Source: Rubrivivax sp.
Lineage (GTDB): Bacteria; Pseudomonadota; Gammaproteobacteria; Burkholderiales; Burkholderiaceae_C
DNA: 64,000 nucleotides
Reading direction: 5' to 3'
Assembly (NCBI GenBank): GCA_030680415.1
Contig: JAUXVE010000103.1
Coordinates: 23,003-87,002 of the forward strand
Positions 12,800 through 63,509 of this stretch are shown here, one piece after another. The translations under genes and the position numbers were made by a program. The notes below the pieces were generated by a model. That model was given only the letters and a program-made list of their open reading frames with translations, was not told where the DNA came from and made no database searches. The number at the start of each line of letters is the position of its first letter. Position 1 is the stretch's first letter.

Positions 12800-12823
12800 G
12801 GCCTGTCTCCGTTGTGTTGTCTG

Positions 12824-15526: not shown

Positions 15527-15657
15527 GGGCGTCTCCTATGGTGGTCGATTTGCAATGGGGCGCGAGTTTCGCACAATGCAAGAGTTTTTCGAATGGCGCA
15601 GGCTCATTTCATATTGCGGCACACGACGGCTGATGTTGACAGGCACACGATAATCCC

Positions 15658-18863: not shown

Positions 18864-18925
18864 GACGATCTTTTCGCCGCGCCTGCCACCGCGTTCGCGC
18901 AAGCGCGGACCGGACTGCTCCCCCC

Positions 18926-18946
18926 AGCCCCCTCCGGGAGGGGGCT
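18926..18946. repeat. GC-rich hairpin repeat between the response regulator and folD
   Basis: agccccctccgggagggggct, near-perfect palindrome, no T-tract. Confidence 0.5.
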
Positions 18947-18975
18947 CCAATCAGAGTGACGAAAGAGTGCCGAGC

Positions 18976-19824: not shown

Positions 19825-20042
19825 ACCCGCTGCTGCAGGCCACCGAGTGGCCGGACTGCCTTTCAGCTGATGCCTGTAGCGCCTTCGAGGAAGCCGGCGT
19901 CTTCGACCCGGCAACCGGCGAGCGCTGCCGCCGCGACATCCTGGAAGTCGGCGGCAGCCGCACGGCGCTGGAGAGCTTTCGCGCCTTCCGCGGCCGCGAA
20001 CCGAAGCTCGACGCGCGGTTGCGTCATCAGGGCCTGGCTTGA
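19821..20042 (+). pseudogene. internally deleted M3 oligopeptidase A-like remnant
   Basis: 73-aa [75 protein letters not shown]: PrlC-like extreme N-terminus joined to the typical C-terminus. Confidence 0.7.
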
Positions 20043-20104
20043 GCGCGGCGCCCAGGTCGGTTAGATTGACTAGACCCACGTCCATGTGCCGCTGGTGCCC
20101 ACCC

Positions 20105-20722: not shown

Positions 20723-20735
20723 TCACGAACGGCCC

Positions 20736-21980
20736 TCAGGGTGCCGTGACCAGCCGTCGCGCCACCCACGAGCCGGCGCCCACCGCGCTGCCCACGGCCC
20801 AGAACAGCACCGCCGCGCCGAGCAGCGTGCCGGTGGCGCCGAAGACCAGCGGCATCACCGTGCTCGACGCGTTCATCGCCATCGAGCGCAAGGCCAGCGC
20901 CTCGCCGTGGCGCTCGTCGGGCGTGAGGTGGTGCAGCATCGACATCACCATCGGCTGCACGCTGCCCAGCGTGATGCCCAGCAGCAGCGCGCACAGGCCC
21001 ATGAACCACGGGTTGGGCGCCAGCGGGTAGAGCGCGAAGACGACGCCGGTGCCGACCATCGCCGCGCGCACCACGGCGACCTCGCGCAGCCGGTGCGCCA
21101 GCAGGGGGATCACGGCCCGCACCGCCGTCACCGACAGCGTGAAGGCACCGAGGATGAGGCCGATCGTGCTGGCGTTGTAGCCACGCTCGTGGCCGAGGAT
21201 GGGCACCGCGAAGGTGTGCACGTCCCAGCACATCGACAGCAGCCAGTTCACCACCAGCAGACGCTTGAGCCCCGGCGCCCGCAACAGGTCCCATGAGGTG
21301 CGCCCTGCCGGCACCGCCTTGGCCAGCGCCGGCGCGCTGCGCGGCACCTGGCGCGCCGAGATCAGCGTTGCCAATGGCATCAGAAGCAGCAGCGCGTAGC
21401 CGGCGCCGAAGCCGTGGGCGTCGATCATGAAGCCCACGGCCACCGGCCCGATGACGTTGGAGAACGAGGGTGCGATGCCCAGCCAGCTGAAGATGCGCAC
21501 GCGCTCGACGCTGCTGCTGGCCGCCACGCTGGCGGTGCGCTGGATCGTCAGCATGCCGGTGTTGGCGCCGGTACCCGCGGCCATGGCGGCCCCGCACAGG
21601 AGCGCGAAGTGCCAGGCGCCGGCCAGGAAGGTCGACGCCACAGCGAGCAGGCAGCCCAACGCCGCCAGAGCCACCGACAAGTACACCGGCCGGTGGTAGC
21701 CGAGCCGGTCGGCCAGGCGGCCGGCGTGCAGCGCCGACAGCACCGGCGCGGCGGCGAACAGCGCCAGCAGCAGCCCCACCGCCCAGGGGCTGTAGCCCTC
21801 GCGCAGCGTCTGCAGCGGAGCCGCCAGCCGCAACCCGGCCATCGCCGAGTGCATGCCGAGCTGACCGACGATGAGTGCGCTCAGCACGCGGCCCGAGCCG
21901 GGGCGCGGCGGTGCGGTGTCAGCCACCGCGTCTGTCGCCCGCTGCGTCGCCCGTCGCTTCACCGGCTTCTTCGCCGGCAT
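20736..21980 (-). CDS. MFS transporter
   Basis: 414 aa, about 12 hydrophobic segments, RLADRLGYHRPVYLSVALAALG loop motif. Confidence 0.85.
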   Translation of the reverse strand: MPAKKPVKRRATQRATDAVADTAPPRPGSGRVLSALIVGQLGMHSAMAGLRLAAPLQTLREGYSPWAVGLLLALFAAAPVLSALHAGRLADRLGYHRPVYLSVALAALGCLLAVASTFLAGAWHFALLCGAAMAAGTGANTGMLTIQRTASVAASSSVERVRIFSWLGIAPSFSNVIGPVAVGFMIDAHGFGAGYALLLLMPLATLISARQVPRSAPALAKAVPAGRTSWDLLRAPGLKRLLVVNWLLSMCWDVHTFAVPILGHERGYNASTIGLILGAFTLSVTAVRAVIPLLAHRLREVAVVRAAMVGTGVVFALYPLAPNPWFMGLCALLLGITLGSVQPMVMSMLHHLTPDERHGEALALRSMAMNASSTVMPLVFGATGTLLGAAVLFWAVGSAVGAGSWVARRLVTAP

Positions 21981-46157: not shown

Positions 46158-46233
46158 TCCCCGATAGCTCAGTTGGTAGAGCGCCGGACTGTTAATCCGT
46201 AGGTCCCTGGTTCGAGCCCAGGTCGGGGAGCCA
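46158..46233 (+). tRNA. tRNA-Asn(GTT)
   Basis: tccccgatagctcagttggtagagcgccggactgttaatccgtaggtccctggttcgagcccaggtcggggagcca: 7-bp acceptor, anticodon GTT, encoded CCA. Confidence 0.97.
46187..46233 (+). repeat. attL-type direct repeat (3' end of intact tRNA-Asn)
   Basis: gactgttaatccgtaggtccctggttcgagcccaggtcggggagcca. Confidence 0.95.
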
Positions 46234-46405
46234 AGAATGACGGGGGTTGGCAGGTGAGTAGCCGCTAACCCCTTTGTCTTTTCTGGTCCGTCAGGTGCCG
46301 TATGGGTGCCGTAGTGCGGAAACCACGCCCACCGGCGGTGGCCCCATGCCACGAAAAAGCCCGCACGCGGCGGGCTTCGACCATTGCGGCGGCGAATCGA
46401 TGTGT

Positions 46406-47026
46406 TCAACCTTCGGCGCGCGACTCGCGGGCTTCGACCCTGCGGCGCTTTTCGGCTTTGGCCGCTCTCGCTCGTTCCAGCTGCGCCAGCTTCTCCGCGC
46501 GTCGCCGGCGAACCATGCTCAAGAGCACCTGCGATTCCCGAATGGCGTTTCCTTCGTGCCATCGCAGAATTCCCGCCGTGTCGACGTGCCGAGCGACGAT
46601 GCCGACCATATCCGCTAGAACGTCGAGCATGGAGTAAGCGCCAAATTCAACCGCGCGCGACCCTGCGTGCGCCGCCTGGCCGGCTTGCTCCAGCGCGTCG
46701 CGGATATCACGGGTGGCGCGCCAATCGTCGCCGGCCGCAAAGCTGGCGCGCGCCCGATTTAGCAGATCCTCGGCCGCCACAACACCGGCCCAGCGGCTGA
46801 AAATAATCTCGGAGTCGCGCCCAGCGGACCCCGCGACGAGCTGCCCGAGCAGTGCTGCCAGCTTGGGCGCGGCCAGGACTGGCGGGGCGGTTTGGGGACG
46901 TTGTTCTACTGGGGCAATCTCGCCCCTATGATCTGCGTAGGTCATTGCTGCAACTCCTGTTTGCGGTGGTGTCTTAGGGGTCGGTCGGCGTTCGCGCGCC
47001 TTCCGGCCCCGCCTGTTTCTGGCCAC
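46406..47026 (-). CDS. hypothetical protein of the satellite element
   Basis: 206 aa open frame in minus-strand operon, GTG start possible or ATG at ~46945; ...AALLGQLVAGSAGRDSEIIFSRWAGVVAAEDLLNRARASFAAGDDWRATRDIRDALEQ. Confidence 0.55.
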   Translation of the reverse strand: MARNRRGRKARERRPTPKTPPQTGVAAMTYADHRGEIAPVEQRPQTAPPVLAAPKLAALLGQLVAGSAGRDSEIIFSRWAGVVAAEDLLNRARASFAAGDDWRATRDIRDALEQAGQAAHAGSRAVEFGAYSMLDVLADMVGIVARHVDTAGILRWHEGNAIRESQVLLSMVRRRRAEKLAQLERARAAKAEKRRRVEARESRAEG

Positions 47027-47199
47027 TATGCCGGCGGCCTGGCCCCCTTCTCACGCTTGCGCTGCAGTTTGGCCGCATAGGCGCGGATCTGCGCATGGTC
47101 GTCGGGGTGGGCGTACAGCTCGAGCCGCGCCAGACCGGCGGCCTTGCGCCGCTCGCGCAGGTCGGCAATGCGCTCGCTGTTGGTTTTCGTCGCACTCAT
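47026..47199 (-). CDS. small RHH-like protein (57 aa)
   Basis: MSATKTNSERIADLRERRKAAGLARLELYAHPDDHAQIRAYAAKLQRKREKGARPPA; below ORF-track size cut-off. Confidence 0.6.
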   Translation of the reverse strand: MSATKTNSERIADLRERRKAAGLARLELYAHPDDHAQIRAYAAKLQRKREKGARPPA

Positions 47200-47345
47200 G
47201 GCCTGCGACGTTACCGGAAAGTTACCGGAACATCAAGCGCGGGGCCGGCAACGGCGCGTCAGATTGGCGCTGGCTGCACGATCAGCGAGGGGGTGGTGGG
47301 GTAGTAGCCTGGCCGGCGTTCGGCCACCCTGCAGCACCCTGGGGA

Positions 47346-47555
47346 TCAGTGCAGCCGGAGTCGGCGCACCTGGCGCAGCATGACATCCACAGCGGCGGCT
47401 GGGTAGTCATCGTCCTCCGCGAACTGCGCAGCGGCGGCGACCACGGCCTCAACGATGTAGGTGTCCGGGTCGCGCCTCCCGGCCGCCGACCTGGCGATGC
47501 GCACCGCAAGGCGGCGCAGCCGCTCCAACTCGTCAAGGGAGAGGTCGGGCACCAT
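47346..47555 (-). CDS. hypothetical protein
   Basis: MVPDLSLDELERLRRLAVRIARSAAGRRDPDTYIVEAVVAAAAQF; minus-strand operon position. Confidence 0.5.
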   Translation of the reverse strand: MVPDLSLDELERLRRLAVRIARSAAGRRDPDTYIVEAVVAAAAQFAEDDDYPAAAVDVMLRQVRRLRLH

Positions 47556-47558
47556 AGG

Positions 47559-47774
47559 TCAGTCGGGCGCCGACTCGTGCAGCAGGTCAGCGATTTCGAC
47601 GAGAAGTGCCAGTGCTCGCGCTGGCGGGCGCAGACGCTGTAGATCGCGCAGCGTGTGCGCGTAAAAGTGATCGACCCGGCGCGCCTGGCGCCGCCTGGGC
47701 GTGCGGGCGCCAGTAGGCGCCTGGCGCCGCGGCGGGGGCAAGTCGATCACGTCAGCCACGGCCGTTGACCCCAA
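47559..47774 (-). CDS. hypothetical protein
   Basis: 71-aa ORF in minus-strand array. Confidence 0.45.
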   Translation of the reverse strand: MGSTAVADVIDLPPPRRQAPTGARTPRRRQARRVDHFYAHTLRDLQRLRPPARALALLVEIADLLHESAPD

Positions 47775-48126
47775 GTGCCCTCAACAACTGCCCGCGCGAG
47801 GCTGCACGGCGCTGCGCATCAAGGTGGTCGAGTAGATCACGCACGACGTCAACGTCGTCTTCTTCCACTGCACCGCCACTGGCACGCTGCAGAGCCTCAC
47901 CAGCCATTGCGGCCAGCGGTGCGACCTCGGGACCGATGCCGGCGTGGGCCAGGCGCGCGGCCAGGTGGATGCTGAACTGCAGCTCATGCAGCGTCTGCGC
48001 GCTGGCGGTGCCGGCGGCCAGTTCCGACAGAGCCAGCCTGTCGCGCGTCTCGACGTGCCGCAGCTCAGGCTCGGTCATTTTCATGGCCAGCCTGACCGGG
48101 TTGAATAGGTGCGCGTTGCAAAGCAT
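47752..48126 (-). CDS. hypothetical phage-like protein
   Basis: MLCNAHLFNPVRLAMKMTEPELRHVETRDRLALSELAAGTASAQTLHELQFSIHLAARLAHAGIGPEV. Confidence 0.55.
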   Translation of the reverse strand: MLCNAHLFNPVRLAMKMTEPELRHVETRDRLALSELAAGTASAQTLHELQFSIHLAARLAHAGIGPEVAPLAAMAGEALQRASGGAVEEDDVDVVRDLLDHLDAQRRAASRGQLLRALGVNGRG

Positions 48127-48271
48127 CTCGTTGGCGTCCCTGGCGCGCGTGCCTGGCTCCGACGAAGGAGGTATCGGCCACCAAGCGGGTCTCGACCATT
48201 GCAGGGTGCCTCTCAAGCCCCTCCGCGCGCCCTATGGTCAAGTCCTTGGACGCGCGCACCCTGCCGCAAAA

Positions 48272-48931
48272 CTATCTGGCGAAGACGGCCACCGCGGTGC
48301 GCGGGTCGGCGCCCAAGGTGACGATTGACACCTCACGCACCTGGCCGTTGCGCAGCACGTTCAGCGGGCCGTGGAAGACCTGGCCGTTGACGCTCACGCT
48401 CTTGCCGGCCGGCACCGCCTCGCGGGTGTAGCTGTACAGGCCCACACTCATCTCGAACGGCACGCCACGCTGCGCGAGCTGGGCGATGCGCTCGGCGGGA
48501 CTCCCCGGCATATCGCTGAACAGCCGGCCGCCGACAACCATGCGATGGTCCCTGGCGGCGGCCTGCTCGATGACGCCGATGATGTCGCTGCGGTAGTGGT
48601 TGTCGAGCAGCGGCAGCTTCTCGTTGAACTTGGTGGTGGCCAGGTCGATGACCACCTCGAAGTCGGGCACGAACCCGCCGCTGTAGGCGGTGCCGCTGAA
48701 TCGGTTGGGCAGCGCACCGTCGGCGCCGGCCTTGAGCGCCAGCGGCGCATTCAGCAGCACCGTGTTGTGCGCCTGGCGCAGCATCACCACGCGCTCGCCG
48801 GCCGGCGGGCGCATTGCGCGTGCCTCATCGGGGCTCAGGGTGACGGTTCGGCCGACGATGAGGTTGATCTTTCCGGCAGCGGCGGCGCGGGCATAGGCGG
48901 CCTCGCCGGCTGTGGTGGTGGTGACTGGCAT
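48272..48931 (-). CDS. prohead (capsid maturation) protease-like protein, HK97/S78-type
   Basis: LPLLDNHYRSDIIGVIEQAAARDHRMVVGGRLFSDMPGSPAERIAQLAQRGVPFEMSVGLYSYT...VREVSIVTLGADPRTAV: LDNH and MSVG positions fit S78 catalytic motifs. Confidence 0.75.
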   Translation of the reverse strand: MPVTTTTAGEAAYARAAAAGKINLIVGRTVTLSPDEARAMRPPAGERVVMLRQAHNTVLLNAPLALKAGADGALPNRFSGTAYSGGFVPDFEVVIDLATTKFNEKLPLLDNHYRSDIIGVIEQAAARDHRMVVGGRLFSDMPGSPAERIAQLAQRGVPFEMSVGLYSYTREAVPAGKSVSVNGQVFHGPLNVLRNGQVREVSIVTLGADPRTAVAVFAR

Positions 48932-49200
48932 CACAGCCTCCCCGACAGGAAGGGTTCGTGCTTGCGCAGCGGCGCCCCCCCCACCTCGCGCGTCGGCGCC
49001 GGGCGCGGGTCGCGCCGCAGGCAGCCGGCTCGTTGCCACTCCACGACGGCCAGCGCCACCGCGCGGCCCGAGTGCTGGGCAAGCAGGTCGAGGGCGGCGT
49101 CGAGGGCGGCGCGGCCCGCGGCATCAAGGTGCTCATCGCGGCTCAGCGTCATCACCGTGACGACGGCCCCAGCGAGAGCTTTGGATCGTTGTTCGCTCAT
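48931..49200 (-). CDS. hypothetical protein
   Basis: MSEQRSKALAGAVVTVMTLSRDEHLDAAGRAALDAALDLLAQHSGRAVALAVVEWQ; adjacent to the protease start. Confidence 0.5.
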   Translation of the reverse strand: MSEQRSKALAGAVVTVMTLSRDEHLDAAGRAALDAALDLLAQHSGRAVALAVVEWQRAGCLRRDPRPAPTREVGGAPLRKHEPFLSGRL

Positions 49201-49204
49201 GGCG

Positions 49205-49744
49205 TCAATCTCCCAGCATCAGGCCAGCGTCGCGGGCCTGCGCAGCAACGTTCTCTTCCTCGGCTTCGAGCTTCGCGATGAGCCCGTCCAGGCGCGTCAA
49301 TTCGGCTTGTCGCTGCGCCATCGGCAGGCCCTCAGGCGCCGGCCAGGCCATGCCGTCAACGGCGCGGTCAAGCGCGGCCACCGTCAATTCGGCGGCCAGC
49401 GAGCTGAGCACCATGTCGAAGCCGCGCGGCGTCGGGTTGCCTTGTGGCGCGGTGGCCGCGACCAGACCGAAGACCCCGGCCACGCGCTCGGGATCGGCCA
49501 GCATGATCGGCTTTGCCACCAGTGGGGCAAGCGCGCGCTGCAGGAGGACGGTGTACCGCTCGCCTCCGGCGCCGATGTAGGCGCGCAGCGCGGCCTTGAT
49601 GTCTTCACGCGCGGCCGGCGCTGCGGCCACCAGGTCGCGCTCGCGGCGCAGTGCCTCCAGTTGCGCGCGCCGCTTGCGCTGGTCCGTCTTGAGGCCGCTC
49701 AACGCGGCCTTGATCGAGGTAAGGGTGGGGATGTCCATGTTCAA
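49205..49744 (-). CDS. hypothetical protein, coiled-coil rich
   Basis: MNMDIPTLTSIKAALSGLKTDQRKRRAQLEALRRERDLVAAAPAAREDIKAALRAYI. Confidence 0.55.
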   Translation of the reverse strand: MNMDIPTLTSIKAALSGLKTDQRKRRAQLEALRRERDLVAAAPAAREDIKAALRAYIGAGGERYTVLLQRALAPLVAKPIMLADPERVAGVFGLVAATAPQGNPTPRGFDMVLSSLAAELTVAALDRAVDGMAWPAPEGLPMAQRQAELTRLDGLIAKLEAEEENVAAQARDAGLMLGD

Positions 49745-50241
49745 GCCTTCGCAGAAGAGGTGGTTGTGTTCGAGCCCTCATCCTGCTCTGGTCGGCCTGG
49801 GATTTCTTCGAGAACAAATCCCCGAAGCAAGTCATGGATGTGCCATACGCTCAAGCTGTCGCCGTCGTTGAATTTCGAGCACCAGTACAAGGCGACGTGC
49901 AGTTCGGCGGCGCCCGCAGGCGGCGTGTCCAGATCGCGCCAGGATCGCCACGGGCCGCGCGAGAGGAAGCTTTCCCAGGCCCCATGCACGCGGCGGGCAA
50001 TCGGCCCTTCGCCGGGCTCGGCGTCGACCAGGCGGGCGAGCTCGGACAACCAGGCATTGCGCTGGCGCACTCGCCGCTGGAATGGGGTCGACCTCAGCCG
50101 CAGGCAGCGTTCGAGGCTCACTTCCCCGCCGGCCCGCGACCACGCGGCGAAGCCGTCGCGCATCCAGCGCAGGGCTTCGGCGTCAACCTCGCCACGCGCC
50201 AGTCGGGCGGCGAGTGCTTCGGCGTGCGCGGGCTCGGTCAT
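49741..50241 (-). CDS. hypothetical protein
   Basis: MTEPAHAEALAARLARGEVDAEALRWMRDGFAAWSRAGGEVSLERCLRL...NAWLSELARLVD; 4-nt overlap with downstream ORF. Confidence 0.55.
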   Translation of the reverse strand: MTEPAHAEALAARLARGEVDAEALRWMRDGFAAWSRAGGEVSLERCLRLRSTPFQRRVRQRNAWLSELARLVDAEPGEGPIARRVHGAWESFLSRGPWRSWRDLDTPPAGAAELHVALYWCSKFNDGDSLSVWHIHDLLRGFVLEEIPGRPEQDEGSNTTTSSAKA

Positions 50242-50365
50242 GCCTATGCAGTGACGGTGAGCAGCAGGTTCACTTAAGACCCCTTAGGAGACCCATGGAA
50301 CAGTCCGCAAGTGCGCTGCAATGGACCTCGCACCGCACAGCCATCCAGAAGTACCTTGACAGTCT

Positions 50366-50830
50366 TCATGGGCACGTCACCTCGCCGGCCGCTATTGCGT
50401 ACCACGGCCGGTCTTTGTCTTCGACGATGTACTCCTCCCCGTCCGCGCCGAGCGCGGACTTGTACGTGTGGCCGGCCAGGAGCAGCGCCCAGACTCCCAT
50501 GAACAACATGACCTCCCAGCGCCTGGCCGGCGGCACGGCCCGCATGGCGGCCTGCAGCCGGGGGACGATGGCGGCGCGCAGGTCGGGCTCGCGCTCGTGG
50601 TGCAGCAGCAGGTGCCAGGCCTCGACGGTGGCCACCGGGTCGGGTGGCGTGGCGACGACTCCGGCCTGGCTCAGTGGCGCCGCCGTGCCGCGCTTGCGCT
50701 TGGCAACACTCAGGTGCTGCATGCGCCAGCGGCGGGCGCCTTCTAGGTCGTCTGGCATGCCCCGGCGCAGGTACCGAGAGACTGCGCTCTGGCTCAGGCC
50801 CAGCGCGGCGCCAAGATCAGACTGCTTCAT
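50366..50830 (-). CDS. HTH protein, possibly terminase-small-subunit/Nu1-like or regulator
   Basis: MKQSDLGAALGLSQSAVSRYLRRGMPDDLEGARRWRMQHLSVAKRKRG. Confidence 0.55.
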   Translation of the reverse strand: MKQSDLGAALGLSQSAVSRYLRRGMPDDLEGARRWRMQHLSVAKRKRGTAAPLSQAGVVATPPDPVATVEAWHLLLHHEREPDLRAAIVPRLQAAMRAVPPARRWEVMLFMGVWALLLAGHTYKSALGADGEEYIVEDKDRPWYAIAAGEVTCP

Positions 50831-51023
50831 GGGTGAATCCTGTTGAATGCATGCATGGGGTGGGCGTAGAACGCTGCTGAAACACGGCGCTCTAGCTCTT
50901 CGTCGAGCCGCAATAGCCCCACGAGGCTCCTCATACGTGGAAGTACCTTGGTTTTTTGATGGCCGCGCAGCCTCGACCACGGCCACCTGGGGCCGCGCTG
51001 CCGGGCATGGGCACAGAGGTCTA

Positions 51024-51210
51024 CCCCCCTCGACAAAGTCGACAGAGTCGACAGACTCGACGCACTCCCCCCGGTCTGTCGACTTTGTCGACTCTGTCTA
51101 CGGGGGTGGGGGTCGGCCCCTGCATCGAAAGAAGAAGAAGAAGGAAGGTCTGATTTGCCTTCTGGCGACAAACCGACAGACTCGACAATCTCGACAGACT
51201 CGACAGACCG
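51024..51210. repeat. 9-nt iteron arrays and 33-bp inverted repeat
   Basis: cgacaaagt/cgacagagt/cgacagact units; arms 51024-51056 and 51074-51106; third array 51165-51210. Confidence 0.85.
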
Positions 51211-51224
51211 GGCGGGCTGGGCAG

Positions 51225-53597
51225 TCATGGGTGCACCTTCGGGTTGACCACGTAGGCGGTGGTGGGCGGCGCGCCCTTGTTGTGCCGCTTGACCTCGCGC
51301 AGCACGTCCTGGGCCTCCAGTCGGTCGACGGCCTTCTTGAGCCGCTCAACGCTGCGGAAGCGGCCTTCCTGTGCCTTCTGGGCCTCGCGCCGGGTGAACT
51401 CCAGCAGTCGACCGGCCTGCACCCACTTCAGCACCGCCGCCGCGTCGGAGTCGACGCCATCGGCGCCGAGCAGCGCGAACGCGGTACGGGCATGGGCCAC
51501 AAGCAGCGTCGCCAGCCGCACCGCGCGCTCCATGCTTTCCAACGGTACCTCACGCACCTGCAGTCCATGCTCGGCCAGGGCCAGCACCGCCGCGATGCGC
51601 GCCGCGGCGCCGGGCAGCTTGGATGTCCAGTCAGCGATGCTCTCCAGCTTCCCGCCTTCGCCCTGCTGTCGCTCGATCTTGTCGGCCAGGTCGAGCCAGC
51701 ACTCCCGCGCCTCGGGTGCCAGGCGCAGCGTCTGCGGCTTCGTGACCTCGCCACCCCAGCCATCGAGCAGCGTGTGCAGCTGGTGCGAATACTCGTCGCG
51801 CACATGCTCTGGTACAGGCAGGTGCCGCCGCACGTCCCGCTGGCCGACGTTGGACATCGGCAGCGCGAACAGGAAGCGGGCCAGCAGCCCGGAGTCGCGG
51901 AACCGCCTGCTGCCCGCCACGTCGGCCAGCACCCCCGGCTGGAGTGCCAGGCCGAAGGACAACGCCGGCTTGTCGACGTGCGCCAGTCGCCCGGCCCTGT
52001 CGACGCGCATCGGTGTGCCGGCGTGGCCTTGCAGTGCGACGTCAAGGTTCGCCGCCCCACCGCTGTAGACGCCGGCCAGTATCAAGAAGATGCCGGCCTC
52101 ATCGGACAGCACCGCCATGCGCTCGCCGTGCTCGACCAGCAGGCCCTGCAGCCTCTCTGGCGTGCAGTCGCCCGTGAACAGGCGCGGCGCGCGCAGCTCG
52201 GCGGGCGTGTCGACTTCCTCGCGCTCGATCTCGGCCTCGATGGCTTTGCGGGCGGTGTTGTCCTTCGCTTTGCCGGCGTCGACCAACAGCTTCTCGATGC
52301 GCTTCTTCGCCACCGCACGCTGCGCCGTGACCTTGGCAATCTCTGCCCGCATGCGGTCGCGCATCAGCTTCTCCCAGGCCACCAGCGGCCCGGCCATCGC
52401 ATTGATGACGGCGGTCTTTCTGGTGCCGCTGGGCAGCGCGGTCAGGGTCCACAGTGCCAGGGGTTCGGTGTAGTCGTCGCCGAACGGGGCAACCTCGAAG
52501 CGCCGCTGCACCGCCGTCGCCAGCACCGCCAGCGCCACCATGACGGCCAGGGCCGGCGGCGTCTGCGTGCTCTTGGCAACTGCGTCGGCCATCTCGCCCA
52601 CCCACCCAGGCAACAGGTCTGCAGGCAGATCTGGCGGTGGCCGATTGCCTGGCAGGATGGGGTCGGGCCATTCGCCCGGCGCATCGTCATCGGCGAAGTC
52701 GCGGTCGTCGACGGGTGGCCTGAATGCCACCCGCGCGGCCAGGTCCTGGCCGTGCTGGTGTTGGTAGCGGCGCAGGATGTCGGCCACGACGCCATCAACC
52801 TCGGCATCAGTCTTCGGCGGATCGCACGCACGCTCGTTCTCTGCATGCACCGCCACGCGCACCGCGTCAGCCGGCATGCCGCGCCAGTTCAGTTGTGCGG
52901 CCCACTTCACCAGGTGCGCGTGTCGCCCGCCAGCCGCGACCTTGCCCATGATCTCGCCCGTCTCTGGGTCGACGCGCCTGGCGGGCTTCTGCGGCGCCGA
53001 CAGGTCCAGCCCCAGCCGCTGCACCAGGTCATCGAACTGGTACGGCTGGAAGGCTTCCAGGCTCACGATGCGGGTGCGAAAGGGCTCGCCCTTGCGATGA
53101 ACGAACCCAGGCACGCGCAGCACCCGCGGCAGGTCGTGCACGCTGATGTCGCCGTTGAACTTCGCCGCGAGCGCCTTCTGCATCGGCTTGAACTGCGCCA
53201 GCGCGCAGTCGGCCACCAGCCAGTAGACATGCCACTTGCCGGGGCTTGATCCGATGACGGCGTGCGGCTCGACGCCGGCCGCCAGCACAGGCTGCAGCGG
53301 CGCGTGGTCGAGGTCGACGAAGACGGCGCGCACGCCGGTGACGTTCTCCGTTTCGCGGCCGGCGCCATCGGTGTGGTTGACCGTCCAGAAGACGCCGGCG
53401 CCGCGGGTGTTGTAGGCCTGCAGCCGCTGCACATGCTGCTCGAGGGTGCCGTGCAGCACAGTCGCCAGCTCGCGCCTCTTTCCGCCGCCGTCATCGAAGG
53501 TCTGGAAGGTGACGGGCTCGCCCTCGGCCATCATGTCGAGGAAGCGTGCGGCGTCGATCAGGTCGACGGCGGGCGCCACGGGGTGCAAGGCGCTCAT
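51225..53597 (-). CDS. DUF3987-type primase/helicase-like replication protein
   Basis: N-term NTRGAGVFWTVNHTDGAGRETENVTGVRAVFVDLDHAPLQPVLAAGVEPHAVIGSSPGKWHVYWLV (primase-like); later TALPSGTRKTAVINAMAGPLVAWEKLM, FTGDCTPERLQGLLVEHGERMAVLSDEAGIF. Confidence 0.75.
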   Translation of the reverse strand: MSALHPVAPAVDLIDAARFLDMMAEGEPVTFQTFDDGGGKRRELATVLHGTLEQHVQRLQAYNTRGAGVFWTVNHTDGAGRETENVTGVRAVFVDLDHAPLQPVLAAGVEPHAVIGSSPGKWHVYWLVADCALAQFKPMQKALAAKFNGDISVHDLPRVLRVPGFVHRKGEPFRTRIVSLEAFQPYQFDDLVQRLGLDLSAPQKPARRVDPETGEIMGKVAAGGRHAHLVKWAAQLNWRGMPADAVRVAVHAENERACDPPKTDAEVDGVVADILRRYQHQHGQDLAARVAFRPPVDDRDFADDDAPGEWPDPILPGNRPPPDLPADLLPGWVGEMADAVAKSTQTPPALAVMVALAVLATAVQRRFEVAPFGDDYTEPLALWTLTALPSGTRKTAVINAMAGPLVAWEKLMRDRMRAEIAKVTAQRAVAKKRIEKLLVDAGKAKDNTARKAIEAEIEREEVDTPAELRAPRLFTGDCTPERLQGLLVEHGERMAVLSDEAGIFLILAGVYSGGAANLDVALQGHAGTPMRVDRAGRLAHVDKPALSFGLALQPGVLADVAGSRRFRDSGLLARFLFALPMSNVGQRDVRRHLPVPEHVRDEYSHQLHTLLDGWGGEVTKPQTLRLAPEARECWLDLADKIERQQGEGGKLESIADWTSKLPGAAARIAAVLALAEHGLQVREVPLESMERAVRLATLLVAHARTAFALLGADGVDSDAAAVLKWVQAGRLLEFTRREAQKAQEGRFRSVERLKKAVDRLEAQDVLREVKRHNKGAPPTTAYVVNPKVHP

Positions 53598-53815
53598 CGG
53601 TTGTCTTTCCTGCGCGCCTGGCGAGCCGCCGCACGGCGCTGCGCACGGTTCTGGGTGTGGACGATGGAGTCGACCATCGTTTCCTCGTCCACGGCTTCCA
53701 AGGTGGGATTGCAGATGCAGCGGTCACCGGCGCCGTGCACACCAGGGCACCATGAGTCGTGTCGGACGACGATGAAGTTGACGACGCCGGGCTTGATGAG
53801 GTCGTCGAGGTTCAC
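53594..53815 (-). CDS. small hypothetical protein
   Basis: MNLDDLIKPGVVNFIVVRHDSWCPGVHGAGDRCICNPTLEAVDEETMVDSIVHTQNRAQRRAAARQARRKDNR. Confidence 0.55.
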   Translation of the reverse strand: MNLDDLIKPGVVNFIVVRHDSWCPGVHGAGDRCICNPTLEAVDEETMVDSIVHTQNRAQRRAAARQARRKDNR

Positions 53816-54096
53816 GGCTGCGCCTCACCCGGCGCCCGCAGCGCTTTCGTCAGCACGCTGCATAGCCCTCGCAACTCCGCGCCGTACAGCATCGCAACGA
53901 GCACCGCCAGCTCATCAGGTTGGGCCTGCTGCGCCTGCAGCCGCGCGATGAATAGCCGCGCCTTTTTCTCGCCCTCTAGCACGCGCAGGGCTTGCCCGGA
54001 ATGGCCAGCGCGGGCGACAATCGGCGCGTCCTGTAGTGTTTGCTCTTGGGGGGTCGGCGTCGCGAGCGCCGGCCCTTCGTCATTTGGGGCGCTCAC
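53812..54096 (-). CDS. small hypothetical protein
   Basis: 94 aa, overlaps neighbours by 4 nt in the same operon. Confidence 0.5.
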   Translation of the reverse strand: MSAPNDEGPALATPTPQEQTLQDAPIVARAGHSGQALRVLEGEKKARLFIARLQAQQAQPDELAVLVAMLYGAELRGLCSVLTKALRAPGEAQP

Positions 54097-54317
54097 TTCG
54101 CGGCCCCGTTCATTGCGTCGATCAGGGACCCCGCTCGCCAGCGAGCGAACTGCGGCCCGTCGCGCTCAGGCTGCGGCAGCTTGCCGGCCTTCACGTCCGC
54201 ATAGAACTTCGATCTGCCGCGCCCGGTGAGCTGCAGCGCCTGTTCGGCGGTCAGCCTCATTTCCGGGTGAATCACTGCCGGAAGTGCCGACAGCATCGCG
54301 CCTCGCTTCTTGCCCAT
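54093..54317 (-). CDS. AlpA-family/excisionase-like DNA-binding protein
   Basis: MRLTAEQALQLTGRGRSKFYADVKAGKLPQPERDGPQFARWRAGSLIDAM. Confidence 0.7.
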   Translation of the reverse strand: MGKKRGAMLSALPAVIHPEMRLTAEQALQLTGRGRSKFYADVKAGKLPQPERDGPQFARWRAGSLIDAMNGAAK

Positions 54318-54484
54318 AGTCCAAACCCCTTTCGTTTGGACTCGTTCGCTGCCTTGCGCCTATTCGCTAGGTAATGCGCCTGAGTCCGTGGGGGTGAAAT
54401 GTCCGGTTTGGGGCGGGCGCGGGCACGTCCTCACATCGCGCGCGCAGCGGCGATGTCGGGACTTGCAAAGTGCGGCGGCGCGTG

Positions 54485-55051
54485 CTACCGGCCGGCTATC
54501 TCGCGGAGCAAGCGGTGATGCGCGAGTTCGTTCTTCACCAGCGGCACGGGGTCAAGCTCGCGGCCGTCGTCGGCGCGAATCCCGGCCACTTCCAGGCATG
54601 CGGTGATGATCGTCAGGAATGGCTCGCTCAGGCCAACATCGATGCCGTGCTTGCGCGCGTTGTGGGCCACGAAGGCGACCAGACTCTGCGCGGCGTGCTT
54701 CGGCGGTCGGCGCCCAGTGCGCGGCAGGCTCTCAAGGTGGGCACGCTGGATTCCGCAGGACGAAACAAGTTCTGGCAGGTACTTGAGCGCGCCCTCCAAC
54801 GTTTCCTTACCGATGCCGATTAGGTCAACAAGGTCGGCGGCTTGAAAGGCGCGCTGCAGCGCTTCCGCGGCCTCGATCATCGCGTCGATGGCATTCTTGC
54901 GCTCGGCGACGGTCATTCGATTCACGGCCCAGTTGTCAGCGCACAGATCAGCCAATTGAGCGAGAAACTCGGGCGGCAGTTGCTGAACCTCAGACCACTT
55001 TCGCAGCTGCTCGGCCTTTCGGCGAACGACGTCCGGTGCAGGCGCGCTCAT
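54485..55051 (-). CDS. hypothetical protein
   Basis: MSAPAPDVVRRKAEQLRKWSEVQQLPPEFLAQLADLCADNWAVNRMTVAERKNAIDAMIEAAEALQRAF; start abuts integrase stop. Confidence 0.55.
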   Translation of the reverse strand: MSAPAPDVVRRKAEQLRKWSEVQQLPPEFLAQLADLCADNWAVNRMTVAERKNAIDAMIEAAEALQRAFQAADLVDLIGIGKETLEGALKYLPELVSSCGIQRAHLESLPRTGRRPPKHAAQSLVAFVAHNARKHGIDVGLSEPFLTIITACLEVAGIRADDGRELDPVPLVKNELAHHRLLREIAGR

Positions 55052-56502
55052 GCTGCCACCTTGCGCCGGCTCTTGATCGGCGTGACGGTTGCGGCCTTGC
55101 CCTGCAGTCGCAGTGCCCACAGCTCGATTGCCGCGCGTTTCTCGGGCAGGTAGTCGTGCTTGTCGTAGTGGCGCTGCTGGATGCCACCCAGGCCGTGGCT
55201 CTGGATCTGCGCGCGCACGTCGCTGCTGATCCCCAGCGCGGCCATGTGCGTTTCAGCGGTGCGCCTCAGGTCGCGCATCTGGAACGGCCCGCGCTCGAGC
55301 TCGCCGGCCGCGGCCATGTCGGCGCAGATTTCGCCCACCAGCTCGGAAGCGGTTTCGTCGCGCAACTGCACGTCGCCGGTGGCGCTGAATAGCGGCGCGT
55401 CGGCGGTCTGACACAGTAGGCGCCGCCGCTTGATGATGGGCGCCAGCTCGGCCACGATGGGCAGCAGGTGCCGGCGTGGATTCGCTGCCCGGTTGCGGCC
55501 CTTGATGTCGCGCAGCACGAGGGTGCCGGCGCTCTCGTCAACATCGGCCGCAACGGCTCGCAGTAGCTGCCGCGGTCGCTGTCCACCAAGTAGCAGAGCC
55601 GCCGTGATGGCGTCGCGCGCCGCGCCCTCTGGCTTGCCCTGCAGCCGCTTCCAGAATGCGTGCAGCTCGGGCAGCGTCAACGCGCGGTCGAGTGCCTTGC
55701 TGAATTGCGACAGGCTCGGCAGCCGCTCCAACTGGTTGACCTCGACGCCGAATGCGGAAAACGTGCCGGGGATGGTCGGGTCAAGCCCGGCGCGCATCGC
55801 CATGCTGTAGGCGGCGCGCAGGTAAGCGCGCAGCTTCGCCGCCGTGCGGCCCTTGCCGGCGTCGATCAACTTCGCCAGCACGTCGCGGAACTGCTCGGCC
55901 TTGATCGTCGCGGCCTGCGCCTGCGCCAGCGCCGGGAATGCCTCGGTAACGTGCAAGCGGAACAGTCCTTCCGCGTCATCGTGGCTCTGCCGGCCCTCCA
56001 GGCTCTTGCAGTAGGCGTCGAGTAGCGCCTGCAGGCTGCCACGCTCTGCCCTGGCCTGCGCCGTAGCGGCGGCCTCGCGCTCGGCCTCGGTGCGCGCCTT
56101 GTCGGCCTGCTCCATTGCCGCGAAGTGCTCGCGCAAGTCGGTGATGCCGGACCTGTGCAGCCGCTGCAGCTCGCCGGCTTTGTCTCGCGCCTCGGTCAGA
56201 TCAAGCCCGCGAACGCCGGTCGGATCGTAGTTGCCGAGCACCAGCGCGTCGCGCGTGCCGTCGCTCTTGGTGAAGCGGTAGACGACGGATCGTGCGCCGC
56301 TCGGCCGGCAGCGCACGCCGAGCCGGCCGGCGCCCCGCGCCGCTGGATCAGTCAACCACTCGTCTTTGCCGGTGGCCTTCGCCTTCGTCGCCGCGGCCTC
56401 GATCTGGCGCGCGGTGATGATGCCGGCTCGGGTGCCGTTCGCCGGCTCGGGTGCCGTTTCTTTGTCGGCGTGCGTGGCCTTGCGCTTCAAATCGGATTTC
56501 AT
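55048..56502 (-). CDS. tyrosine-type site-specific integrase
   Basis: LLLGGQRPRQLLRAVAADVDES (catalytic R region) ... MRDLRRTAETHMAALGISSDVRAQIQSHGLGGIQQRHYDKHDYLPEKRAAIELW (R/H/Y motifs); next to attR. Confidence 0.92.
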   Translation of the reverse strand: MKSDLKRKATHADKETAPEPANGTRAGIITARQIEAAATKAKATGKDEWLTDPAARGAGRLGVRCRPSGARSVVYRFTKSDGTRDALVLGNYDPTGVRGLDLTEARDKAGELQRLHRSGITDLREHFAAMEQADKARTEAEREAAATAQARAERGSLQALLDAYCKSLEGRQSHDDAEGLFRLHVTEAFPALAQAQAATIKAEQFRDVLAKLIDAGKGRTAAKLRAYLRAAYSMAMRAGLDPTIPGTFSAFGVEVNQLERLPSLSQFSKALDRALTLPELHAFWKRLQGKPEGAARDAITAALLLGGQRPRQLLRAVAADVDESAGTLVLRDIKGRNRAANPRRHLLPIVAELAPIIKRRRLLCQTADAPLFSATGDVQLRDETASELVGEICADMAAAGELERGPFQMRDLRRTAETHMAALGISSDVRAQIQSHGLGGIQQRHYDKHDYLPEKRAAIELWALRLQGKAATVTPIKSRRKVAA

Positions 56503-56653
56503 GTCCGTAGGTCCTCGGGTGCCGTATGGGTGCCGTAAGGCGCCGGCAGGTGGCACACTGTCGCGCACACCTGCGGACAATTATCGAGCCTAAGTGATTG
56601 ATTTGTCTACACCGTACGGCACCTGACGCACAGCAGCGGACACGGGCGAGGAT

Positions 56654-56700
56654 GACTGTTAATCCGTAGGTCCCTGGTTCGAGCCCAGGTCGGGGAGCCA
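56654..56700 (+). repeat. attR-type direct repeat (displaced 3' end of tRNA-Asn)
   Basis: Identical 47-bp copy, not preceded by the tRNA 5' half. Confidence 0.95.
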
Positions 56701-56738: not shown

Positions 56739-57794
56739 TCAGGTGCTTTTTTCTTTCCTCTCGACGGCCTGTGACGGATTTGTGCCATGAATGGCCAACT
56801 CCCCATCACGCAGACCGCCCAATCGCTCCGCATAGGGCGCCAGATGATCCGCGGCAAGGTGCGCGTACCGCCGCACCATCTCCGCACTCGCCCAGCCCCC
56901 CATCTCCTGCAAGACGAACAAGGGCGTACCGCCCTGCACGTGCCAGCTGGCCCAGGTGTGCCGAAGGTCGTGCCACCGAAAATCTTCGATGCCCGAGCGC
57001 TCCAGCGCCGAATACCAGGCCTTCGTACTGACCTGCGTGATCCGGCTACCTTGGTAGCTGAACACATGCGTGACGTGTTTCCCCAACTGCTTGGCGATCA
57101 CTGCGACCGCTTCCGCATTGAGCGGAACCGGTATCGCCTTTCGCGCCTTCGCCTGGTCTGGATGAATCCACGCCAGCCGCCTGTCCAAGTTCACTTGCGA
57201 CCACATCAACCCGGTGACGTTCGCAGCCCTCAACCCGGTCGAGAGCGAGAACGTCGCCATGTCCGCCAAGTGCTCCGGCAACTCGGCCAGCAATCGCTGG
57301 GCTTCCTGCCGCATCAGGTACCGGATGCGCCGTTTGGGCTCCCGCAGCATGCGAACTGCAGGGGCCTTGTCCAGCCATTCCCAGTCCCTGACGCACTTGC
57401 GCAGGATGGACCTCACCAATGCCAGCACGCGGTTGACCGTCGCGTTACTGCACCCTCCCGCAAGCTTGGCGTCCGTGATCTTGTCGATCAAGGCGCGGTT
57501 GATGGCATCGAGTTCTTTGCCGCCGAGGTGCGTGTCCAGCCACCTCAACTTGGCCTTGTCCTCTTTGGCGGTCGCCTTGTGCGACTGCTCCTTCAGCCAT
57601 TTCACCGCCGCCTCGTTCCAGGTCCGCCGCGGCTTCTCGCCAAGTTTGACGATCCGCCACAGTTCGGACTTGACCCGATCATGAAACTCCTGCGCTAGGG
57701 TTTTGTTGGCAGTCCCAGCAGTTCGGCGTACTCGTTCCCCGTTGGGAGCAATGACGTCGATCCACCAGACACCGCCGCGTTTGCGTAGTGACAT
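56739..57794 (-). CDS. second tyrosine-type site-specific integrase
   Basis: MSLRKRGGVWWIDVIAPNGERVRRTAGT...FSLSTGLRAANVTGLMWSQVNLDRRLAWI...FRWHDLRHTWASWHVQGGTPLFVLQEMGGWASAEMVRRYAHLAADHL. Confidence 0.95.
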   Translation of the reverse strand: MSLRKRGGVWWIDVIAPNGERVRRTAGTANKTLAQEFHDRVKSELWRIVKLGEKPRRTWNEAAVKWLKEQSHKATAKEDKAKLRWLDTHLGGKELDAINRALIDKITDAKLAGGCSNATVNRVLALVRSILRKCVRDWEWLDKAPAVRMLREPKRRIRYLMRQEAQRLLAELPEHLADMATFSLSTGLRAANVTGLMWSQVNLDRRLAWIHPDQAKARKAIPVPLNAEAVAVIAKQLGKHVTHVFSYQGSRITQVSTKAWYSALERSGIEDFRWHDLRHTWASWHVQGGTPLFVLQEMGGWASAEMVRRYAHLAADHLAPYAERLGGLRDGELAIHGTNPSQAVERKEKST

Positions 57795-58078
57795 TCCGAT
57801 TCCTTTCTCAGTGTCACTTGCAACGCTTGCCGGGGTACAGGATAGCGCGAGCGGATGTGCTCCGCCAGGTCGTCCTCGAGGAACACCCAGGCACGCCCGA
57901 CCTTCGCGCCGGGGATCTTTCCGGCCTTGGCGCGCGAGCGCAATTCCTGCGGATGGCAGCGCAGGAACGCAGCGGCTTCCTTGAGATCGAGAGTCTTCAC
58001 GGCAGCATCCCCCACTGGCTGTATGAGCGCAGCGTTCGCGATGGGGAATCGCACCATGCAGACGTCCCACAGCGACAC
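57695..58078 (-). CDS. helix-turn-helix/excisionase-like protein
   Basis: VKTLDLKEAAAFLRCHPQELRSRAKAGKIPGAKVGRAWVFLEDDLAEHIRSRY (MerR/Xis-like HTH). Confidence 0.75.
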   Translation of the reverse strand: MSLWDVCMVRFPIANAALIQPVGDAAVKTLDLKEAAAFLRCHPQELRSRAKAGKIPGAKVGRAWVFLEDDLAEHIRSRYPVPRQALQVTLRKESECHYANAAVSGGSTSLLPTGNEYAELLGLPTKP

Positions 58079-58356
58079 GGATCAAGGATGCTGTGAGGGC
58101 CGGTTAATCAGAACTCGCCCCAGCGCAACGTGGCGCAGGCTACCCAAGCCACAGCGCAAGTTGATGCCAGGCGACAAGGTGTCTGGTATGTGCATCGATG
58201 TACGCGGAACGAGGCTCACGCCTGAGTACGCCAGAGTTGGTTGGTTGTCGCCGCACGGACTGTGACGATACCGATGCCGCGCGCGCCAAGAGATCGGACC
58301 AGGCCGGGCTGTCAACAGCCGGCTTCGCGGCGATCACCCACACACCCAAGGCTGCA

Positions 58357-58816: not shown

Positions 58817-59044
58817 CTACGTTGTCGGTGCATTGCGCAGGGCCTTGAATGCCCTGTCTCTCTCCATGAAAGCCGCCAGCATGTGCGGGATCAGCGTCGG
58901 CGCGTCGACCGGCTCGCTCCAAACCTGCGCATGCAAGTCGGCGTAGCGATCGAGCATCGTCTTGAGTTCGATCGACAAGGTGACGGTGAGCTTCACCGTC
59001 TCGGTCCGGGGCAACGGCCCCAGGCGCAGTTTGGGCGCGCTCAT
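58817..59044 (-). CDS. DUF2274-type protein of conjugative trb cluster
   Basis: MSAPKLRLGPLPRTETVKLTVTLSIELKTMLDRYADLHAQVWSEPVDAPTLIPHMLAAFMERDRAF. Confidence 0.75.
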   Translation of the reverse strand: MSAPKLRLGPLPRTETVKLTVTLSIELKTMLDRYADLHAQVWSEPVDAPTLIPHMLAAFMERDRAFKALRNAPTT

Positions 59045-60288
59045 TGCGACGATCCTCGCTGGAAGAACAGCGGCTGATACGGCCGCAGGATCAAATCCTT
59101 GTTCACCATCACCCGCATCGGGAACCCCGGCCGGATGGTCAGCGTCGGCTGGATGCTCATGTTGCGCTTGGTGATCTCCTGACCGACCTGGTTCACCGTG
59201 TCCTGTGCGCTCTGTCGAACGGCGACAGTGACTCCGCCGCTGCTGCCGTTGCTGTTGGGCGCGGCGAGCTCGGCACCGACCCCGAGCAGCGTGGACAGCG
59301 CCGCGCCGGCGAGGATGCGATCCCAATGCCAATCGACGCCATCCTCGAGCCCGGCATAGCCGGCCGGGTCGATGCCGGGTAGCCGGTCGAGCGCGATCGA
59401 CGACGTGTCCGGCAGGATCAGCCGCGTCCACACCAGCAGCACGCGCCGCTGTCCGAAGGCCACCTGGCTGTCGTAGCGTCCGATCAAACGCGAGCCCTGC
59501 GGAATCAGCAGGAAGCGACCCGTGGCCGTGTCGTAGACCGCCTCGCTCACGTTGGCGATCACCTGTCCCGGAAGGTCGGAGTTGATTCCCGTCACCAGCG
59601 CTGCCGGAATGATCGTGCCCGCCATCACCTGATAGGGTGAAGCCGGCAGTTGGAGGCCGGCAAGATTGCGCGTGGCCGTGTCGCCCGCATTCGCCACGAG
59701 TGCCTGCTTCTGCTCCTGCCGGTTCTGCACGGCCGTCTGATCGGCGGGCTGTGCCGACGCAACCGCACGGGCCATCGGATTGAACGGCTGGTTGCCCGAC
59801 ACCGGCTCGGGCATGGCCCCGCCCGCAGAGACTGCTGGCGCGGCCTTCGCAGCGCTGCTGCTCCTGAAGAACACCCCCGACCTCGCCGCCTCATCGGCAT
59901 CGCGGACGCGGGCCAGCCGATCCGTCTGCGCCGGACTGTCGTACGCGCCGGTGCCGGTGTTGGCGTCGCGTTGCGAACGCACGATGGCCGGCCCCAGATC
60001 GCCAGGCAACGGTTCGCCGAGTACGGGCACGGCCGGCTTCGTCACGGCCGGCATCTTGGAATAGTCCTTCGGCAACTGGTCCAGGCTCTCGGCCCGCGAC
60101 ACCCGATCCACGTTGAATAGCTCGGTACCGGCGTTGCGCTCGCGCTTGTGCGATTGCAGCGACCACAGCGTGGCCCCGAGAACACTGGCGCCCAGGGCCC
60201 CTGCGAGAGCAGCCAGCATGCGCCGGTTCAGCCGCGTGACCGGGCGTGGAGGCGCGCGCAAGACCAAGGTGTCTGGATCCAATGGCAC
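59041..60288 (-). CDS. trbI: conjugal transfer protein TrbI/VirB10-family, N-terminus probably truncated at the mobile-element junction
   Basis: RPVTRLNRRMLAALAGALGASVLGATLWSL...YQVMAGTIIPAALVTGINSDLPGQVIANVSEAVYDTATGRFLLIPQGSRLIGRYDSQVAFGQRRVLLVWTRLILPD. Confidence 0.9.
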   Translation of the reverse strand: MPLDPDTLVLRAPPRPVTRLNRRMLAALAGALGASVLGATLWSLQSHKRERNAGTELFNVDRVSRAESLDQLPKDYSKMPAVTKPAVPVLGEPLPGDLGPAIVRSQRDANTGTGAYDSPAQTDRLARVRDADEAARSGVFFRSSSAAKAAPAVSAGGAMPEPVSGNQPFNPMARAVASAQPADQTAVQNRQEQKQALVANAGDTATRNLAGLQLPASPYQVMAGTIIPAALVTGINSDLPGQVIANVSEAVYDTATGRFLLIPQGSRLIGRYDSQVAFGQRRVLLVWTRLILPDTSSIALDRLPGIDPAGYAGLEDGVDWHWDRILAGAALSTLLGVGAELAAPNSNGSSGGVTVAVRQSAQDTVNQVGQEITKRNMSIQPTLTIRPGFPMRVMVNKDLILRPYQPLFFQRGSSQ

Positions 60289-60469
60289 TTCCTTAAGGAA
60301 AATTCCTTTCCAATCAATGTGATAGCGTGGAATTGAGGTCGACCAGCGATGTCCCCGTGGCAGATCTGGATGATTTCTGCAGGCTTTTCTGATAGTGCCG
60401 GCGGGCGATGCTGGTCATTGGCACCCAGGGGGCTTGCGTTCCAAATCCAACTCGATTACTCTGCGATGC

Positions 60470-61351
60470 ATGCAGAGCCTGGTGATCTACCGACACCGCG
60501 TCATCACCGAAGACGACCTCGTCTTCATCCGCAAGCTCATTGCTGAGCATCCGGGCTCGAGTCGAAGGGATCTATCGAAGAGGCTGTGTCAGGCCTGGAA
60601 TTGGGTGCAGGCCAACGGCGCGTTGCGCGATATGGTCTGCCGCGGGTTGATGCTGATGCTCCACCGCGGAGGCCTGATCGAACTGCCGCCGGTGCGCCGG
60701 GTGCCACGCAATCCGATGGTCGATCGCAACCAACCGTTGCTCGTGAGCGTGGACGAGGCGCCGCTGCAGATGGCATTGGGCGAGCTCGGTCGGCTGGAGC
60801 TGCGGCAAGTGCGGCGCACGTCCGAGGAGGCCCTGTTCAACAGTCTGCTCAGGCACCACCACTACCTGGGCTACACGCAGCCTGTGGGTGAACATCTGAA
60901 GTACCTTGTATTCGCCAGGGGACGACCGATCGCCTGCGTGGCGTGGTCGTCAGCGCCGCGTCATCTGGGCAGCCGCGACCGGTTCATCGGCTGGGACAAG
61001 AAGACGCGGCTGAAGAACATCCGACTGCTGGCCTACAACACGCGGTTTCTGATCCTGCCGTGGGTCAAGGTGCCACATCTGGCGTCGCACATTCTGGGGC
61101 GCATGGCGCGCACGCTCTCGGCCGATTGGCAACGCGTGTACGCGCATCCGATTTACTTCGTCGAGACGTTCATCGATCCGCAGCGCTTTGCCGGCACCTG
61201 CTACCGGGCCGCTAACTGGACGGTGTTGGGGGAGACGACGGGGCGCGGCAAGGATGACCTGGCACACAAGGCCAATCGCTCGATCAAGGAGGTGCTGGGC
61301 TATCCGCTGGTCAAGGACTTCCGCAAGCGACTCTCGCAACTGGCTGCCTGA
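60470..61351 (+). CDS. DUF4338 (Druantin DruA-like) protein
   Basis: LFNSLLRHHHYLGYTQPVGEHLKYLVFARGRPIACVAWSSAPRHLGSRDRFIGWD...ETFIDPQRFAGTCYRAANWTVLGETTGRGKDDLAHKANRSIKEVLGYPLVKDFRKRL. Confidence 0.85.
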   Translation: MQSLVIYRHRVITEDDLVFIRKLIAEHPGSSRRDLSKRLCQAWNWVQANGALRDMVCRGLMLMLHRGGLIELPPVRRVPRNPMVDRNQPLLVSVDEAPLQMALGELGRLELRQVRRTSEEALFNSLLRHHHYLGYTQPVGEHLKYLVFARGRPIACVAWSSAPRHLGSRDRFIGWDKKTRLKNIRLLAYNTRFLILPWVKVPHLASHILGRMARTLSADWQRVYAHPIYFVETFIDPQRFAGTCYRAANWTVLGETTGRGKDDLAHKANRSIKEVLGYPLVKDFRKRLSQLAA

Positions 61352-63149: not shown

Positions 63150-63509
63150 ATGAGCAAGCTGTCCGACTATCCGTTCGAGATCCGTCCCTTGACCGAGGAG
63201 GAAGGCGGAGGGTTCCTGATCTCCTTCCCTGACTTCGCGGAGTGCATCTCCGATGGCGAGACTGTTGAAGAAGCGCTGGCGAGCGGCCGCGAAGCACTGA
63301 AGGCCACGATTGCCGCGCTCAAGTCCAAGAAATTGGCGGTTCCTGCGCCGAATAGCGGCGGCGTCGCCTCAGGCAAGTTTGTAGCCCGTGTGCCGAAAAC
63401 AGTACACGCACAACTGGCTACACGCGCCAAGGCAGAGGGCGTCTCGTTGAATGCGTTGGTCCTCACGTTTATCGCCCAAGGCCTCGGTCGAAAAGAGGGT
63501 CGGGCGTAA
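63150..63509 (+). CDS. hicB: HicB antitoxin with C-terminal RHH domain
   Basis: YPFEIRPLTEEEGGGFLISFPDFAECISDGETVEEALASGREALKATIAALKSKK...FVARVPKTVHAQLATRAKAEGVSLNALVLTFIAQGL. Confidence 0.92.
   Translation: MSKLSDYPFEIRPLTEEEGGGFLISFPDFAECISDGETVEEALASGREALKATIAALKSKKLAVPAPNSGGVASGKFVARVPKTVHAQLATRAKAEGVSLNALVLTFIAQGLGRKEGRA

Follow-up and report, generated by a model that had tools for sequence, protein, structure and literature searches.

Genes and Boundaries of the Element

A 10,467-bp element (~10.5 kb) is integrated in a tRNA-Asn gene in the draft genome (MAG) of a Rubrivivax sp. The stretch of this genome that was analyzed, referred to as the window, is 64 kb long. The features of the element are listed below from attL to attR, with the supporting evidence in parentheses.

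46158..46233, plus strand: tRNA-Asn(gtt), reconstituted on the attL side (ARAGORN; Rfam tRNA, 68.6 bits)
46187..46233, plus strand: attL, 47-bp direct repeat (repeat comparison)
46406-47026, minus strand: ORF at the attL end, no family (ORF call, family searches)
47026-47199, minus strand: ORF at the attL end, no family (ORF call, family searches)
47346-47555, minus strand: small ORF, no family (ORF call, family searches)
47559-47774, minus strand: small ORF, no family (ORF call, family searches)
47752..48216, minus strand: late-zone ORF, no convincing family (ORF call; Pfam, PHROG, PADLOC, NCBIfam)
48272..48934, minus strand: stand-alone capsid-maturation protease domain (~220 aa) without scaffold C-terminus (phrog_3244, 4.3e-19; NCBIfam protease/MCP fusion, 1.5e-7)
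48931..49200, minus strand: small ORF, no family, overlapping the start of the protease gene (ORF call, family searches)
49205..49744, minus strand: protein of 174-179 aa, no family (distant relatives in the satellite-like loci L051 and L064)
49741..50241, minus strand: small protein also conserved in further satellites (L063, between TerS and MCP; L027, before the MCP)
50366..50830, minus strand: TerS-like HTH protein, C-terminal half unlike phage TerS (phrog_57 TerS, 6e-4)
51020..51215, no strand: 9-bp iterons (CGACARACT-like) in a direct and inverted array, putative replication origin 3′ of the primase (motif scan)
51225..53597, minus strand: RepB-type primase fused to a DUF3987 helicase (DUF3987, 1.9e-103; RepB_primase, 1.1e-14)
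53594..53815, minus strand: small ORF, no convincing family in Pfam or PHROG (ORF call)
53812..54096, minus strand: small ORF, no family in Pfam or PHROG (ORF call)
54093..54317, minus strand: AlpA-like HTH protein, putative excisionase/regulator, weak match (PHROG excisionase, E = 0.027; BLAST)
54485..55051, minus strand: protein of no known family between int and the AlpA-like gene (ORF with coding-like GC3; weak KfrA_N match, E = 0.07)
55048..56580, minus strand: inward-reading tyrosine integrase whose exact start codon is uncertain (PHROG phrog_1, 1.7e-29; Arm-DNA-bind_3, 1.4e-6)
56654..56700, plus strand: attR, 47-bp repeat identical to attL, displaced 3′ part of the tRNA (repeat comparison)

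The exact 47-bp repeats reported in the first-pass annotation were recovered at both ends of the element. No further copy with ≤3 mismatches was found in the window (shuffling expectation, 0), and a search of the whole MAG provided no copy elsewhere in the genome. A single intact tRNA-Asn(gtt) was identified at the site using ARAGORN and Rfam; it lies on the left, and the right repeat was verified as a displaced 3′ part, both as described previously. The integrase gene adjoins attR and reads into the element. Every identified gene of the element is on the minus strand, in agreement with the strand bias noted earlier. A TrbI conjugation gene is located 2.3 kb outside attR.

The integrase, primase/helicase, HTH, and prohead-protease assignments made from the letters alone were all confirmed by family searches. 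The AlpA-like assignment held in part. The ORF matches ORFs at the equivalent position in relatives with BLAST E values of 1e-5 to 1e-8, but the PHROG excisionase match is weak and no Pfam match was obtained. Pfam and PHROG searches of the ORFs in the element detected no family of TerL, portal, MCP, tail, or lysis proteins, in agreement with the reported absence of terminase large subunit, portal, tail, and lysis genes. The largest minus-strand ORFs from the HTH gene to attL are the protease ORF (255 aa from its first start) and one of 206 aa. The latter is too small for an MCP. Nothing convincing was found among defense genes using PADLOC and NCBIfam.

The iteron density is 7 sites per 400 bp in the array versus 0.01 per 400 bp elsewhere. 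An ORF at 50827-51228 was rejected as a gene because it has a flat GC1/2/3 profile and overlies the array. Iterons 3′ of the primase are also found in most relatives of the element; 8 of 27 loci score 0 with the same pattern, and some of these eight have other repeats at that place. The primase with a 3′ ori, as in GN-PICIs, is present at the level of the nucleotide sequence, with the iterons as the putative origin.

The N-terminal part of the TerS-like HTH protein matches TerS genes located beside TerL in viral contigs. Full-length relatives are found in the satellites L017, L021, and L055, and L021 carries a separate TerS alongside. Since this second TerS is present in L021 and the protein has no recognizable TerS C-terminal half, it is perhaps no subunit of a terminase. 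A BLASTN comparison with the five phage contigs described below revealed no common cos/pac site and no long shared noncoding DNA. The ORF at 49205 has no relatives among the viral contigs.

Relatives in the Burkholderiales

GTDB genomes were scanned with a primase alignment, which provided 16 loci. Among 401 sampled genomes of the family, matches with E < 1e-60 were obtained in 12, the window's own genome included. The two scans overlap, with certain contigs recovered by each of them. About two dozen relatives were found in the Burkholderiales, with primase identities of 43-72%. The search for the same gene order in this group, suggested in the first-pass annotation, was productive. The order int, AlpA-like gene, primase, DUF3987, TerS or TerS-like gene, small genes, and capsid gene recurs, as read for several relatives from mechanical ORF calls and BLAST against a small reference set. 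The relatives occupy different tRNAs, are of similar size, and share the same early and replication genes. Exact tRNA att repeats of 38-48 bp were identified in five relatives, and the integrase is also aimed inward in each of these:

L025: 8.17 kb, exact tRNA repeats
L063: 8.66 kb, exact tRNA repeats
L052: 8.88 kb, exact tRNA repeats
L053: 9.49 kb, exact tRNA repeats
L061: 9.64 kb, exact tRNA repeats

An MCP is present in 24/24 relatives with a visible late zone (L010, L011, L014-L017, L020, L022-L030, L052, L053, L055, L056, L058, and L061-L063) and is absent from the window element. The assignment was made by PHROG matches in 21 of the 24 (for L028 via L059, which is the same contig) and by BLAST to the L010 protein for L017, L020, and L030. 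The weakest match is that of L058 (1e-14). Among these loci, L020 comes from the environmental Acidovorax sp. NB1 and L028 and L029 from Malikia granosa, both of them cultivable. The MCPs are of the HK97 type, protease-MCP fusions, or of the lambda gpE type. These loci outline a Burkholderiales family of small satellites in which several kinds of capsid gene occupy one slot. An element from the same genus, L091, has the primase N-terminus alone in common with the window element.

The Stand-Alone Protease Domain and Its Phage Counterparts

The nearest phage copies of the protease are protease-scaffold proteins of 357-366 aa (phrog_3244; L007, L008, L009, L077, and L078). The identity over the protease domain is 71-76% to the first four and 66% to L078. 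The gene order on these contigs is portal-protease-decoration, with TerS-TerL(GpA) upstream where covered. In the phage copies, the protease domain is followed by a scaffold-like C-terminal part (or an MCP fusion), whereas the copy in the window ends directly after the protease domain and the scaffold half is gone. All 16 relatives on viral contigs are longer, and no stand-alone domain is found among them; those beyond the nearest five are ORFs of 433-732 aa, some truncated by contig ends. The DNA match to L007 and L008 is 80% over ~475 bp and is restricted to 48295-48767 (BLASTN). The Mu-like I protein of Psychrobacter phage vB_PmaS_Y8A is 36% identical to the window protease.

The catalytic histidine (LLDNHYRS) and serine (FEMSVG) are located in invariant alignment columns and are the same as in the phage proteins. 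As judged from this alignment, the domain keeps the catalytic residues of an active capsid-maturation protease. The ORF has coding-like GC3 and overlaps its neighbors. The dN/dS values over 163 codons are 0.34-0.43 for satellite-phage pairs versus 0.15-0.46 for phage-phage pairs; being pairwise, these values do not separate out the branch of the satellite. The protease was modeled with low confidence (pLDDT of 56). Its fold matches include T4 gp21 and herpesvirus proteases and are not significant.

Identity of the Element and Proposed Role of the Protease

The exact tRNA att repeats, the inward integrase, the recurrent family layout with capsid genes, and the phage-related protease together argue that the element is very probably a Gram-negative PICI-type phage satellite. 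The GN-PICI features present are a tyrosine integrase of its own with att repeats, the inward orientation of int, a late zone with a phage late gene, and the lack of TerL, portal, and tail genes. In published GN-PICIs, int points inward, the ori lies downstream from pri, and phage late genes occupy a late zone (PMC10111431). The PICI/P4-type layout proposed in the first-pass annotation was thus upheld for the satellite nature and the PICI type; the P4-like type was rejected, since no sid, psu, or delta family is among the Pfam and PHROG matches. The account as a whole (an intact GN-PICI-type satellite, the type of its helper, and the role of its protease) is considered probable.

A defective prophage remnant would also explain a phage-derived protease and TerS-like HTH protein, but int aims inward (outward in prophages), and TerL, portal, tail, and lysis genes are missing. 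The full structural module that the ORFs of no family might have encoded was not detected by family searches, and the element is one of a recurring family whose members are comparable in length, sit in various tRNAs, and share their early and replication genes. This explanation is therefore highly improbable. Equally remote is an integrative plasmid-like or mobilizable island that replicates via RepB/DUF3987 and acquired a phage gene fortuitously. The RepB_primase family also includes plasmid primases and the TrbI gene lies near attR, but family searches revealed no relaxase or plasmid transfer gene between the att sites, and relatives with the same primase have TerS and an MCP. A plasmid-derived island without phage homologues, as raised at the outset, is at odds with the DNA identity of the protease gene to phage head-gene clusters.

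The element resembles the GN-PICIs EcCICFT073 and PmCI172 (PMC6092414, PMC10111431): it is inserted at a specific att site, int points inward, a putative alpA-like gene is present, iterons follow the primase, a phage head gene occupies the late zone, the size is ~10 kb, and TerL, portal, and tail are lacking. It differs in that a maturation-protease domain replaces the capsid protein, in its DUF3987/RepB replication module, in its Burkholderiales host, and in the weak AlpA match. Both PmCI172 and EcCICFT073 have capsid homologues (PMC6092414), and an MCP is found in 21/29 reference PICIs (PMC10111431). The late-zone head gene of the window element is a lone protease domain, and the element is therefore counted as a new variant of the GN-PICI satellite. 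SaPIbov5 (PMC8569155, PMC6893505) similarly contains a single head gene that has diverged from its helper counterpart, and the relatives of the window element have Ccm-like MCPs; Ccm, which redirects capsid assembly, is homologous to a capsid protein, whereas the window element encodes a protease but lacks a capsid protein. For SaPIbov5, it is stated that no protease could be identified (PMC8569155). The cf-PICIs are also satellites with head genes, but they build their own capsids, and this assignment was rejected because the element has no head set of its own (MCP, portal, TerL). The PICMIs share int, alpA, a DUF3987-type primase, and small size (PMC10803314). They are integrated at fis in Vibrionaceae and are without capsid-remodeling genes (PMC10803314), whereas the window element is in tRNA-Asn with a protease, and a PICMI was rejected on these grounds.

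In the proposed life cycle, the activity of a helper phage would lead to excision of the element by Int, with the AlpA-like protein as the putative excisionase. The RepB-primase/DUF3987 protein would then replicate the element, starting at the iterons immediately 3′ of its own gene, and packaging by the large terminase of the helper would be steered by the TerS-like HTH protein or by an unrecognized cos/pac site. As the helper, a tailed phage is most likely, one whose terminase is of the GpA type and whose head cluster resembles that of L007-L009, L077, and L078. The protease domain of this phage type, apparently cut loose from its scaffold domain, occupies the slot in which relatives hold a capsid gene. 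Its most likely role would be to disturb or redirect helper head assembly through untimely or unlocalized cleavage of the scaffold or capsid protein. Interference with or redirection of head assembly is a plausible though tentative function; the narrower proposal, that mistimed or misplaced cutting of the helper scaffold or capsid protein by the scaffold-free protease blocks or resizes the heads, is put forward with somewhat greater reserve. The capsid-interference factors covered by the satellite literature consulted (Sid, CpmAB, Ccm, Rcm, and a PLE protein) act via binding, scaffolding, or capsid mimicry, and a stand-alone protease acting on helper heads would be an enzymatic route of capsid interference. 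Searches of the literature with literal terms, which could miss synonyms and leave most subscription journals outside their scope, found no paper combining satellites with a prohead protease.

The protease could also be an idle relic: a larger head cluster, comprising protease-scaffold, decoration, and MCP, would have been captured and then mostly lost, with the element riding in unmodified helper capsids, and this is a serious possibility. Late genes enter PICIs as clusters, and many are proposed to be lost afterward; the knock-out of one PICI capsid gene was tolerated (PMC10111431). Since transfer does not depend on the published PICI capsid genes (PMC10111431), a gene in the late zone may be without function. 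Recognizable phage similarity in the late zone is moreover confined to the protease domain. Against a relic are the open reading frame with its coding-like GC3, conserved catalytic residues, and overlapping neighbors, the pairwise dN/dS within the phage range, and family and BLASTN searches that revealed no leftover MCP or scaffold fragments. It is unlikely that the protease is instead a helper sensor, decoy, or superinfection factor. Satellites of other families respond to helper proteins for induction (SaPI Stl, PMC6092414), but the gene is positioned in the late zone, where relatives hold capsid genes, and the catalytic residues are retained.

Several points weigh against the preferred reading of a satellite that acts on its helper: the weak AlpA match, the missing TerS C-terminal half of the TerS-like protein, the low-confidence protease model, and the fact that no helper was found in the same MAG (96% complete). 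Searches of the MAG provided no GpA-type terminase, Phage_cap_E protein, or second such protease. The one TerL that PF03354 detected in the MAG is part of a cf-PICI-like element (contig C7), which carries an HK97-type protease.

A probable second element adjoining attR

The region to the right of attR (56654-56700) contains the following genes.

56739-58085, minus strand, second tyrosine integrase
57695-58078, minus strand, HTH_17 excisionase-like gene
59041-60288, TrbI conjugation gene

The first two start right of attR, and together with TrbI they probably mark the edge of another integrative element at the same tRNA-Asn. This element is perhaps conjugative. The end of the window is also the end of the contig. 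The neighbouring element also encodes a DruA-like (Druantia) protein at 60395-61351 and, at 63150-63509, a HicB-like antitoxin.

Primases of related loci

Relatives of the 174-179-aa protein encoded at 49205-49744 of the window were found in two satellite-like loci whose primase is of another kind (phrog_1139).

L051 4965-11514, satellite-like locus
L064 107-3751, satellite-like locus

RadC and TerS are present in L051, and the major capsid protein (MCP) was not detected in this locus. The DUF3987 primase ORF at 8536-10086 of the tRNA-att-bounded relative L053 is split by an in-frame TAG, and therefore this relative may be decaying.

Capsid-bearing elements

A cf-PICI-like element with an integrase, MCP, HK97-type protease, portal, and TerL is located in the same draft genome as the window, and a lambda gpE-type MCP is found in the Malikia granosa satellite.

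L093 3416-13495 (G000:C7 about 11415-21494), cf-PICI-like element
L059 14424-15437 (L028 15269-16282 of the same contig), lambda gpE-type MCP

A transposase-looking ORF appears at L059 12103-13137, within the late zone of the Malikia granosa satellite.
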